From assembly GCA_012719175.1 (NCBI GenBank), contig JAAYAX010000004.1:186001-250000 (forward strand): DNA of 64,000 bases. Reading direction: 5' to 3'. Numbering within the stretch: position 1 is the stretch's first letter; every line of letters starts with the position of its first letter. The notes beneath the pieces are model-generated. The model was not told where the DNA came from and searched no databases. It worked only from the letters and a program-made list of their open reading frames with translations. The DNA is from Methanomassiliicoccus sp. GTDB lineage: Archaea; Thermoplasmatota; Thermoplasmata; Methanomassiliicoccales; Methanomassiliicoccaceae. Of this stretch, positions 19,187-62,523 are shown one piece after another. The translations under genes were made by a program, and so were the position numbers.

Positions 19187-19261
19187 GGGCCCGTAGCTTA
19201 GCCTGGCTGGAGCGCCCGGCTGATAACCGGGAGGTCAAGAGTCCAAATCTCTTCGGGCCCA
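19187..19261 (+). tRNA. tRNA-Ile(GAU), copy 1
   Basis: Acceptor GGGCCCG pairs with CGGGCCC; the anticodon arm CCCGG-CTGATAA-CCGGG gives GAT; the T-arm is AGAGTCCAAATCTCT. The discriminator is A, and CCA is encoded at 19262-19264, unlike the serine tRNAs here. CTTTAAAAC at about 19152-19160 is a TATA-like promoter. The 17 nt upstream and the whole gene are identical to copy 2 at 20303. Confidence 0.95.
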
Positions 19262-19264
19262 CCA

Positions 19265-20285: not shown

Positions 20286-20380
20286 TATTCCCTCCATTCA
20301 ACGGGCCCGTAGCTTAGCCTGGCTGGAGCGCCCGGCTGATAACCGGGAGGTCAAGAGTCCAAATCTCTTCGGGCCCACCA
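20286..20380 (+). repeat. Direct repeat containing tRNA-Ile copy 2 (mate at 19170-19264)
   Basis: TATTCCCTCCATTCAAC followed by the entire tRNA gene and CCA (95 bp) occurs at 19170-19264 and again here without a visible difference. TATA-like TTAAAA lies about 30-35 nt upstream in both. The copies are 1116 bp apart, so a segment of that period is bracketed by tRNA genes. Confidence 0.85.
20303..20377 (+). tRNA. tRNA-Ile(GAU), copy 2
   Basis: Identical to copy 1 throughout, with CCA encoded at 20378-20380. CTTAAAAAGG at about 20269-20278 is the probable promoter. Both copies look functional. It marks the left side of a segment that ends with a 24-nt copy of its 3' end at 24505-24528. Confidence 0.95.
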
Positions 20381-28474: not shown

Positions 28475-28939
28475 TCATTCCTCGATCATAAGGCCCTTGG
28501 TCTCCAGGACCAGCTCCTCCATGCCCATCTTCCCAGCGTTCGCGTCCAACCCCGGCTGGATGATGAGGTCTATTGGTAAGCAGTTGATGAGGGAATAGCT
28601 TGCCAGTACCTCTCCTTTCTCATCGACTATCTTGATCTCGATGTCCTTACGGGCCTCACCTTCGTTGCATGTCGGGTCCCTAGTGGACTCGAACCACTCC
28701 CAGAAAGCCTGATCGGCATCCTTGCCTCGTTTAATGACGACCTGGAACCCCTTGCTCTGGCCCATAAATAACCTGTCCGGAGATGGAAGCTTCTTCCTCG
28801 ATGGTAACAGCGGTCCGGGGACATTTCCCGATTGCAGTACCTTGACCACTCCGTACACCTCCTTTCCATCCCAGCACACGATGAGCCGGTGGCCCTTCTT
28901 GATCAAAATATGCTTCCCGTTCAAGAATAATTCTGGCAT
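28475..28939 (-). CDS. Phage tail-tube-like protein (T4 gp19 family candidate)
   Basis: The 154-aa protein follows the gp19 plan: N-terminal strand region HRLIVCWDGKEVYGVVKVL, the middle FQVVIKRGKDADQAFWEWFE, then RKDIEIKIVDEKGEVLASY, and the end MGMEELVLETKGL. This is the same order of strand, helix and Glu-Leu-Val-Leu terminus as tail tube and Hcp-like proteins of contractile systems. The ATG at 28939 (MPELFLNGK) is preferred to the longer frame from 28981. No sheath, baseplate or AAA chaperone is nearby, so it is an orphan. It could be a domesticated remnant or another beta-barrel protein. Confidence 0.5.
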   Translation of the reverse strand: MPELFLNGKHILIKKGHRLIVCWDGKEVYGVVKVLQSGNVPGPLLPSRKKLPSPDRLFMGQSKGFQVVIKRGKDADQAFWEWFESTRDPTCNEGEARKDIEIKIVDEKGEVLASYSLINCLPIDLIIQPGLDANAGKMGMEELVLETKGLMIEE

Positions 28940-29125
28940 GGTGAAACCCCCGGTGGTCGCATCATCTGTTCTGAAAGGCATGGAGGCGAGTTACCGCTCC
29001 GGCGATCATGCGTGCGGAGGCCTACTATCCTCACCTTCTTCGACAGGGACCGTTCTCCTTTCGTCAACAAGCTTCCTTTCTTCTCCCTTCCTCCTGTTCT
29101 CAATCTAAGGCCTGAGCGTTATTAT

Positions 29126-29190
29126 GACCGACCGGGGAGGCCGCGTACTGCGGCCTTTTCACACGCATCCAGTTGTGTGCCCGGTCGGTC
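29126..29190. ncRNA. Perfect three-way-junction palindrome (structured RNA or DNA element)
   Basis: Outer stem P1: 29126-29136 GACCGACCGGG pairs with 29180-29190 CCCGGTCGGTC over 11 perfect bp. Inside, P2 is 29138-29144 AGGCCGC with 29150-29156 GCGGCCT (loop GTACT), followed by TTT, and P3 is 29160-29164 CACAC with 29175-29179 GTGTG (10-nt loop), stacking on P1. No protein frame covers it. It could be a small RNA, an mRNA leader of the antiporter 434 nt downstream, a terminator, or a recombination site. From 29191 to 29623 the DNA is AT-rich with no other gene seen. Confidence 0.55.
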
Positions 29191-29623
29191 GAGGGCGGGT
29201 GGTTTTTATTTCGGTAGTTCTGACCTGTGAGGACGGACCCCGCAACCTCTGATGATTTGATTGCAGGAATTAGTTAATAAATATTTCTAACATAATAAAT
29301 TTGAAAAAATATTTAATTGAATGAACGCCAACGGAGAATGAGAGGGACGTCCTGACAATAGGTCAGTGGATAGAATGGCTTCTTGAATTACGGTCTTCAT
29401 TCCCAGGTTGGTGGATGGTCGCGAAAAATGTGATCATCTCACTACCAAGGAAAAATAAGGCTCACTTTTTTATCATGGTTTGAGCCTTTGTATAGATGGC
29501 GTGGAATTCACACGCCGACTTATTGATGGCCTGTCCTTCTGGAGTAAAGGGCGGACCTGTTTGTGATCAGCAATATGAGCGGAGAGACATGAGGGAAGCA
29601 ACTTCAGGGAGTAACTACAGCAG

Positions 29624-31393
29624 ATGAGTGCGGATGTCAGGGTCGTCGTTGACATGGCTCTCCTGCTGGGCCTGTCAGGTGTTTTGTCCATCATCTTCGT
29701 CAAGCTGAAGATGCCGCCCATCATTGGCTACCTGGGTGCAGGCATAGTCCTTGGCCCGTCCATGCTTCCTGAGCTGTGGGTGGAAGGGAACACCGTTTCT
29801 CTGCTGTCCAACATCGGCATCGTGCTGCTCATGTTCTACATCGGCCTGGAGACGGACCTTCGCAAGCTCAAGGCCACTGGATCGAAGCTGCTGTTCATCG
29901 TGTGCCTGCAGATGCCCCTGGTGGTGGCGATGGGCTATCTCACCGGCATCCTACTGGGCTTTAATTCGGTCCAATCCATCTTCCTGGGAGCGATCATATC
30001 GGGAACGAGCACGGCAGTGGTGGTGGGGGTCCTCTACGAGACTCGCCACATCGACAAGGATATGGCCAGGACCATAGTGAACATCACCATCTTCGAGGAT
30101 GTGGGCCAGGTCATCCTCCTGACCATGTTCTCGCCTCTCCTGGCCGGTGACTCCCCCGCCCTGGGATCCACCATCAACATGATCCTTGGTCTGATACTGT
30201 TCTTAAGCCTGGCCATCGTCTTCGGGACTGTACTGGTCCCGCGCCTGCTGAACTATATTGGAGGGAAGTTCTCCTCCGAGATCTTGCTTATCGTGGCGGT
30301 GGGACTGTGCTTCTCCTTGGCGGCCATATCCGCCGAGATGGGGTTATCCATCGCCATCGGGGCTTTCATCATGGGCATGATGATCTCTATCTCCAAGTAC
30401 AGTCCGAGACTGATGACGGAGGTGGAGCCACTGAAGGAGCTGTTCATGGCGGTGTTCTTCATCTCCATCGGACTGCAGATAAGCCCCCTCCATATCTGGG
30501 AGAACATAGTGCTGGCGATTATCATCGCCGTGGTGTTCATCATCAGCAAGGTCGCGACCATTTGGCTGGGCTGCTACCTGACCAACATGACCGCCAAGGA
30601 CAGCTTCCTGATCGCCACCAGCCTCATCGCCATGGGTGAGTTCGCTTTCATAATCTCTAAGGCGGCTTTCGATGCGGGTGTGGTGAACGAGGGGTTCTAC
30701 TCCGCGGTCATCGGCGCCGCCCTGATCACCATGGTGGCCATGCCGATCATCACCAAACGCCAGCTGAAGCTATTCGATCACATAGGGAAGCTCCTCCCCG
30801 AAAAGGTACGCTGCAGCCTCGCCCGGATCGACGATATCCATCAGACCATAGACTCGAAGAACTCGCGGACCCCTAATGCGGCCAGATCGGAGATCAAGAA
30901 GTATCTGTCGCTCATCTTTGTCGATATTCTTATTGCACTGGTGGTCATGATCATCTTCACGAACCTGGAGCGTTTCTCCGCACGCCTTTTTGACGCTCTA
31001 TCTGGCCTCTTGCTCCTCCCGAGCGAGCTGCTGATGATCGTCCTGATCGTCATCATGGCCCCCATCGTGTACAACATGTACTCCAATGTTCGGGCGATCG
31101 CCAGAGTGCTAACCAAGCAGGTCATGGAATCATCAAGAGGCTCCTGGATGAACGAAAGGGGCGTCTATCTCATGTTCGCCAACCTAGGCACCATCGCCTT
31201 GGTCCTCATCTTGCTGTTGATCCTCCTGCCCTTCATGCCCCAGGTGGTCTTCAGGCCAGTGGGGATAGCGCTGGTCGGCCTGGGAGCGATCCTCATACTG
31301 TACCTATCCTGGGACACCATAAAACGGGCCTACGATCGGTTCTGCCAGTTTATCGCCTCCGAACCGGAAAAGGAAGAGAAGGAGGGGCCTTAG
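29624..31393 (+). CDS. CPA2-family monovalent cation:proton antiporter
   Basis: The 589-aa protein has 12-13 transmembrane helices in the first 385 residues with the CPA2/KefB motifs PPIIGYLGAGIVLGPSML, IGLETDLRKLK, and ISGTSTAVVVGVLYE, and FIMGMMISISKYSPR. It probably exchanges Na+ or K+ against H+. Instead of a RCK domain, the C-terminal 170 residues begin with a charged segment followed by three or four further membrane helices (about 445-570), an unusual extension. It is monocistronic in appearance. Confidence 0.85.
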   Translation: MSADVRVVVDMALLLGLSGVLSIIFVKLKMPPIIGYLGAGIVLGPSMLPELWVEGNTVSLLSNIGIVLLMFYIGLETDLRKLKATGSKLLFIVCLQMPLVVAMGYLTGILLGFNSVQSIFLGAIISGTSTAVVVGVLYETRHIDKDMARTIVNITIFEDVGQVILLTMFSPLLAGDSPALGSTINMILGLILFLSLAIVFGTVLVPRLLNYIGGKFSSEILLIVAVGLCFSLAAISAEMGLSIAIGAFIMGMMISISKYSPRLMTEVEPLKELFMAVFFISIGLQISPLHIWENIVLAIIIAVVFIISKVATIWLGCYLTNMTAKDSFLIATSLIAMGEFAFIISKAAFDAGVVNEGFYSAVIGAALITMVAMPIITKRQLKLFDHIGKLLPEKVRCSLARIDDIHQTIDSKNSRTPNAARSEIKKYLSLIFVDILIALVVMIIFTNLERFSARLFDALSGLLLLPSELLMIVLIVIMAPIVYNMYSNVRAIARVLTKQVMESSRGSWMNERGVYLMFANLGTIALVLILLLILLPFMPQVVFRPVGIALVGLGAILILYLSWDTIKRAYDRFCQFIASEPEKEEKEGP

Positions 31394-62419: not shown

Positions 62420-62523
62420 CGCCGAGGGAGAGATTTGAACTCCCGAGGCGGAGACCGCCAGTGGTTCGCTCGGAGATCTCTTTCTTTCGAGACCACCGCC
62501 TTACCGGACTAGACTACCTCGGC
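62420..62523 (-). tRNA. tRNA-Ser(CGA) with 19-nt intron
   Basis: On the minus strand, acceptor GCCGAGG pairs with CCTCGGC, with discriminator G and no CCA. The anticodon stem GTGGT/ACCAC is interrupted after position 37 by an intron at 62467-62485. The junction is a textbook bulge-helix-bulge: outer helix GTGGT/ACCAC, 3-nt bulges AAA and CGA, and central helix CTCG/CGAG. Splicing gives the loop CTCGAAA with anticodon CGA. The T-arm GGGAGTTCAAATCTCTCC and a long variable arm confirm serine identity. Confidence 0.92.

Follow-up and report, generated by a model that had tools for sequence, protein, structure and literature searches.

In archaea, guide RNAs of the box C/D and H/ACA types are small and stable and contain an internal loop. 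Two regulatory RNAs of Methanosarcina mazei offer a closer comparison with the locus considered below. One of them, sRNA154, is an intergenic small RNA (sRNA) of the nitrogen regulon that is conserved within one genus and has a stable fold; two of its loops pair with mRNAs, one of them over the ribosome binding site (PMC5867862). The other, sRNA162, is 191 nt long and folds into three stem-loops, with a 39-nt linker that varies; it pairs with mRNAs through a single-stranded segment, is known only in close relatives and extends into the 5' UTR of the divergent gene beside it (PMC3510493).

The window analysed here is the whole stretch of 64,000 nt of Methanomassiliicoccus DNA, and the features of interest are listed in Table 1. 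With a probability of about 0.8 we take the minus strand of the locus to carry a stand-alone, genus-specific gene for a small RNA, with an archaeal promoter of its own. Like the guide RNAs, its product would be a small, stable archaeal RNA with an internal loop. It is similar to sRNA154 in its intergenic position in an archaeal genome, its conservation within one genus and its stable fold, but it belongs to another archaeal order and would combine one big loop with a sealed junction domain. sRNA162 is likewise a stand-alone intergenic gene beside a divergent gene and is found only in close relatives. However, its linker is variable, whereas conservation here is highest in the exposed loop, and it overlaps the 5' UTR of its neighbour, whereas the likely start of the antiporter transcript at our locus, placed near position 29500, implies no overlap. 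By analogy with these descriptions, the RNA appears closest in kind to sRNA154 and sRNA162. Autonomous intergenic archaeal sRNAs are a functional class and not a homologous family; with respect to this class, the RNA lies in an intergenic region, and all seven homologues described below have their own promoter-like TTATNA, a putatively active element. This RNA was not described, and no small RNA of Methanomassiliicoccales was found in print, in the literature on small RNAs, transcriptomes and structured RNAs of the order that was covered (few subscription papers among it). It would be a previously undescribed small RNA of the genus Methanomassiliicoccus.

Table 1. Coordinates of the proposed small RNA gene, its parts, its putative promoter and its neighbours in the window
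Feature	Position	Strand	Basis or remark
Small RNA gene, minimal conserved unit of about 125-129 nt	29123..29251	-	Covariance models R1-R3; 7/7 genus genomes
Domain P1	29191..29249	-	9 pairs, 2-nt bulge; pairing in 100% of cells over the 7 sequences
P1 loop	29200..29238	-	In part within the invariant run; mostly unpaired by prediction
Domain P2 (three-way junction)	29126..29190	-	Folding, pair counts
Spacer from TATA box to presumed start, with TGCAAT	29252..29273	-	22/22 positions invariant in 3 species
TATA box TTTATTAA	29274..29281	-	TTATNA in 7/7 homologues; putative promoter role
BRE-like GAAATA, abutting the TATA box upstream	29282..29287	-	Alignment A8; putative role
CPA2-type Na+/H+ exchanger family protein (neighbour, outside the RNA)	29624..31393	+	PF00999, 203 bits
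T4 gp19-like tail tube protein (downstream neighbour, outside the RNA)	28475..28981	-	PF06841, 58 bits

An earlier, sequence-only reading of this locus had described a perfect three-way junction with stems of 11, 7 and 5 bp separated by G and TTT, and had considered its chance occurrence very unlikely. The geometry is exact. Positions 29126-29136 (GACCGACCGGG) form an 11-bp stem without mismatch with 29180-29190, and the two arms are also recovered as an inverted repeat with 100% complementarity. A single G at 29137 separates this stem from the 7-bp one (29138-29144 with 29150-29156), which in turn is separated by TTT at 29157-29159 from the 5-bp stem (29160-29164 with 29175-29179). The region has a predicted folding energy of -44.4 kcal/mol on the plus strand (z -6.6) and of -40.1 kcal/mol on the minus strand (z -5.0). 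None of 200 dinucleotide shuffles is as stable on either strand. Among 12,787 segments of 65 nt, sampled every 5 nt across the 64 kb, the region is the most stable one on the plus strand; on the minus strand it is equalled or surpassed by a single other segment. The comparisons below indicate that the junction is the 3' half only of a larger RNA and not the whole unit. The earlier reading had missed the continuation to 29251, a second conserved hairpin, the promoter-like sequence and the likely transcription of the minus strand.

Homologues were collected with covariance models. Model R1 was built from three species, namely the window and two loci (L018 and L019) from Methanomassiliicoccus MAGs whose antiporter proteins are 90% identical to that of the window. 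It found a fourth member, L130 in genome G006, among 147 genomes of the order (E 0.0037), and a fifth, L021, at 21 bits. Model R2, built from these five sequences, found two members outside its training set, L134 in G001 (E 2.4e-5) and L133 in G002 (E 2.2e-5). The window locus itself scores 148.2 bits with R1, 136.7 with R2 and 107.7 with R3. Loci that carry two designations (L018/L128, L019/L127, L021/L132 and L130/L131) were counted once. The RNA is present in all seven Methanomassiliicoccus genomes examined, with one copy found per genome, and R2 has no match at E <= 0.1 in the remaining 140 genomes of the order. In 40 relatives searched with R3 at E <= 1, the sole match outside the genus (G037, L139, E 0.093) was rejected, as some positions of its closing helix fail to pair. 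Among 400 drawn evenly from the class, four match R3 at E <= 0.05, all of them within the genus; the large model scans used stricter filters, with which weak matches are lost. Other candidates were also rejected: the R2 matches in G009 (E 1.6) and G008 (E 4.7) fall in DNA that, by eye, looks like coding sequence for a membrane pyrophosphatase-like protein, and the R3 matches L138 (E 0.15) and L140 (E 0.60) lie within long open reading frames. A further weak R2 match is found in G004:C95 (L137, E 1.08).

The stems of these homologues are preserved by compensatory changes. In alignment A7 of the seven sequences, which was fitted to R2 and, like A5, leans towards the model, 97.5% of 197 cells pair (96.3% in the closing helix of P2), and 15 of 33 pairs are changed on both sides. 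None of 500 shuffles reaches that number, and slid structures have 40-57% of cells paired with one or two double-changed pairs. MAFFT alignments A4 and A6, in which the stems of the divergent members are misplaced, were excluded from the pair counts. The number of independent change events should be below 15, because several double changes mark a single split between subclades. A small protein was considered and rejected: six-frame translations of the seven homologues contain no conserved start and frame, and lengths change by 1-3 nt. The RNA thus appears to combine a conserved secondary structure that carries paired changes with the lack of a conserved reading frame, as is characteristic of the sRNA class. 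A covariance-model search of the genome and its relatives had been proposed from the sequence together with several identities for the fold, with a lack of homologues or of covariation named as grounds for refutation. Neither lack was observed: the RNA was recovered in all seven genomes of the genus that were examined, with its pairing maintained, and the small RNA is the identity that gains from it.

The two domains differ in how far their details are shared. In P1, GAGG (29246-29249) and GCGGG (29239-29243) pair with CCUC (29191-29194) and CCCGC (29195-29199), respectively. Three of these pairs are altered on both sides among the seven sequences, and across homologues the helix consists of GAGG, a 2-nt bulge and 5-7 bp. 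The P1 loop comprises a C/U-rich strand (29226-29238), a small hairpin of GGU (29223-29225) with ACC (29213-29215) and an A-rich strand. The C/U-rich strand is predicted to be open and reads GUCCGUCCUCACA in the window and AACUUCCCCUU in L132-L134. Individual folds contain P1 and the closing helix of P2 in all seven homologues. According to these folds and to the pair counts, the 11-bp closing helix is found genus-wide, but beyond the subclade of the window the inner arms vary: the window, L018 and L019 clearly form the two arms of the perfect junction, and the other four homologues differ. As modelled, the perfect three-way form is confined to this subclade.

Comparison with Rfam 15 assigned the RNA to no known family. 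In the window only tRNAs reach the gathering score; at 29000-29400 the best matches have E of 0.9 or worse, far below gathering, and at the six homologous loci there are none up to E 0.5. RNase P RNA (RF00373) was rejected, the copy of this genome being elsewhere (G000:C4:368129-368421). A box C/D guide RNA was rejected as well: on the RNA strand, box C and box D are missing in six of the seven homologues (RTGATGA and CTGA occur once each, both in L130), and no guide-RNA family of Rfam reaches its gathering score. As to the tRNAs of the window, two tRNA-Ile(GAT) genes on the plus strand (19187-19264 and 20303-20380), 1.1 kb apart, are identical across the tRNA and the 16 nt directly upstream. 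A tRNA of 104 nt on the minus strand (62420-62523) is recognised by Rfam with 43 bits and not by ARAGORN, and probably has an intron near the anticodon.

In the locus alignment of the window, L018 and L019, a run of 81 nt (29209-29289) is invariant, and the second-longest invariant run in the 2.9 kb compared is 29 nt, within the antiporter gene. Invariant positions make up 111 of 129 in the RNA region and all 16 in the BRE/TATA sequence, compared with 372 of 589 third codon positions of the antiporter. Outside the gene and its promoter-like sequence the proportion is 51% (83 of 163) at 28960-29122, directly after the RNA, and 36% (62 of 171) at 29290-29460. The loop sequences are conserved to the same degree as the stems.

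The AT-rich end of the conserved block can be read on the minus strand as an archaeal promoter-like sequence of the BRE/TATA type. On the RNA strand, TTATNA stands 29-31 nt upstream of GAGG in all seven homologues (31 nt in the window). The BRE-like site contains AAAT in six homologues and TTAT in L133 (alignment A8), and the spacer motif TGCAAT is likewise found in six, being replaced by TGGAAT in L130. Transcription most likely uses the minus strand, from 29251 to 29123 and away from the antiporter, mainly because the spacing between TTATNA and GAGG is fixed in all seven homologues; we infer a 5' end at 29251-29249. The count of wobbles (5 G-U versus 2 A-C among 197 cells) agrees weakly with this strand. 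The fold of the plus strand is the more stable one in five of the seven homologues, which counts against the minus strand and would suit an RNA read from the plus strand, either a small RNA or a leader of the antiporter. Such a reading is very unlikely: the only promoter-like element at a fixed distance is that of the minus strand in 7/7 homologues, and the T-rich stretches before 29126 would put a plus-strand start inside the first stem. The leader or riboswitch that had been suggested from the sequence loses further ground with respect to the antiporter, which has its own T-rich TATA-like box at 29466-29474 (partly conserved, and a putative promoter), separated from the RNA by the poorly conserved 29290-29460. 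In L130 and L021 a distance of over 4 kb separates the RNA from the homologue of the antiporter (about 6.2 kb in G006 and 4.4 kb in L021). A leader of the antiporter is unlikely since a cis-regulatory leader is expected to accompany its gene, and the neighbours of the RNA change.

This change of neighbours extends to both sides. In the window, L018 and L019 the RNA is intergenic between the gp19-like gene (minus strand) and the divergent antiporter (plus strand). In L132/L021 and L134 a gene of an APH-family kinase follows the RNA on the same strand; the divergent gene of L021 encodes a PAS/GAF histidine kinase, which sequence in L133 and L134 resembles by eye. The RNA appears to be a stand-alone gene that is independent of particular neighbours. 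It is quite unlikely that it is instead a riboswitch-like 5' leader of the downstream minus-strand gene, here the gp19-like one. In the window, L018 and L019 this gene comes next on the strand of the RNA and starts about 270 nt past the presumed transcript start, no run of at least four T occurs in the 120 nt after the RNA at these loci, and in L132 and L134 it is the kinase gene that follows on this strand. The downstream gene nevertheless differs between the subclades, the adjoining gene of L130 is convergent, L133 has no open reading frame of at least 90 aa on the RNA strand within 1.5 kb downstream, and conservation falls to 51% directly past the RNA. Across the seven loci there is no U-tract within 120 nt after the RNA, except for one TTTT in L132, so that transcription may read through from the RNA into a downstream gene. 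The gp19-like protein also matches TIGR02241 at 51.5 bits, below the cut-off of 62.4, and its gene stands alone, as none of its neighbours was recognised as a further phage-tail gene; a sheath-like PF04984 match (35 bits) is found elsewhere in the genome (G000:C14:31763-32035).

The perfect inverted repeats adjoin an AT-rich invariant block, as might be expected of a DNA element, namely a cruciform, a recombination site (also suggested by the sequence-only reading) or a segment of a replication origin in which the AT-rich block would be the unwinding element. We consider this extremely improbable: one copy was found per genome, the AT-rich block coincides with the one-sided BRE/TATA sequence at a fixed distance in 7/7 homologues, the loops are as conserved as the stems, and phage and plasmid records contain no match. 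A repeat or mobile element was rejected too: the genome has no second copy, and viral contigs do not contain the exact pattern of the loop. A search of the genome at E <= 10 gave eight matches, of which the seven besides the locus itself cover 14-21 bases only.

The conservation of the spacer between the TATA box and the presumed start of the small RNA, TGCAAT included, exceeds the needs of a plain promoter, and the spacer may be a site bound by a regulator. By eye, TGCAAT was not seen upstream of the two tRNA-Ile genes, a tRNA-Ser gene, one further tRNA gene and the RNase P gene. A search of the seven genomes for the promoter motif with up to three mismatches listed 33 matches. Among those listed, the matches in G001, G002 and G005 (no mismatch) and in G006 (one mismatch) are the promoter of the RNA itself, and the remaining ones have two or three mismatches each. 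With no other convincing copy in the seven genomes, a shared promoter motif marking co-regulated genes was rejected.

The small RNA might act as follows. RNA polymerase would be recruited by the BRE/TATA sequence at 29287-29274 and would start near 29250, yielding a product of about 125-130 nt in which the P1 hairpin is stacked directly on the very stable P2 domain. The large, strongly conserved P1 loop would expose its C/U-rich strand as a presumed contact site for mRNAs or a protein, and P2, here the three-way junction, would seal the 3' side and probably protect the molecule from decay. The most likely function, which we put forward tentatively, is that of a trans-acting regulator whose P1 loop base-pairs with mRNAs. 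On 41 start regions the real P1 loop was matched in pairing by 3 of 100 shuffled loops. The loop has no preference for starts over coding sequence (41 start regions versus 205 inner coding stretches, one-sided p 0.97-0.98); the inner stretches pair better with it and are also richer in G+C. Targeting of start codons by the P1 loop gains no support from these comparisons. A match of 18 nt, found in three genomes, was rejected as an antisense target: it has the same sense as the RNA, lies in protein-coding sequence and is probably due to chance. The next-best function, an RNA serving a protein complex, is fairly unlikely. It is doubtful that the RNA is a constitutive one that acts as a global regulator or forms the core of a ribonucleoprotein new to science and specific to the genus, a reading to which one could relate the P1 loop and the promoter with its frozen spacer, which are under tighter conservation than the protein genes nearby.

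Targets are known for few small RNAs of archaea, and the worked examples come mostly from Methanosarcina and Haloferax. The RNA described here would add a case from a group of methylotrophic methanogens that includes members from the human gut (PMC7883539). It is compact, genus-wide and strongly conserved, with a precisely predicted 5' end and a defined exposed loop, and its covariance model allows genome annotators to label it.
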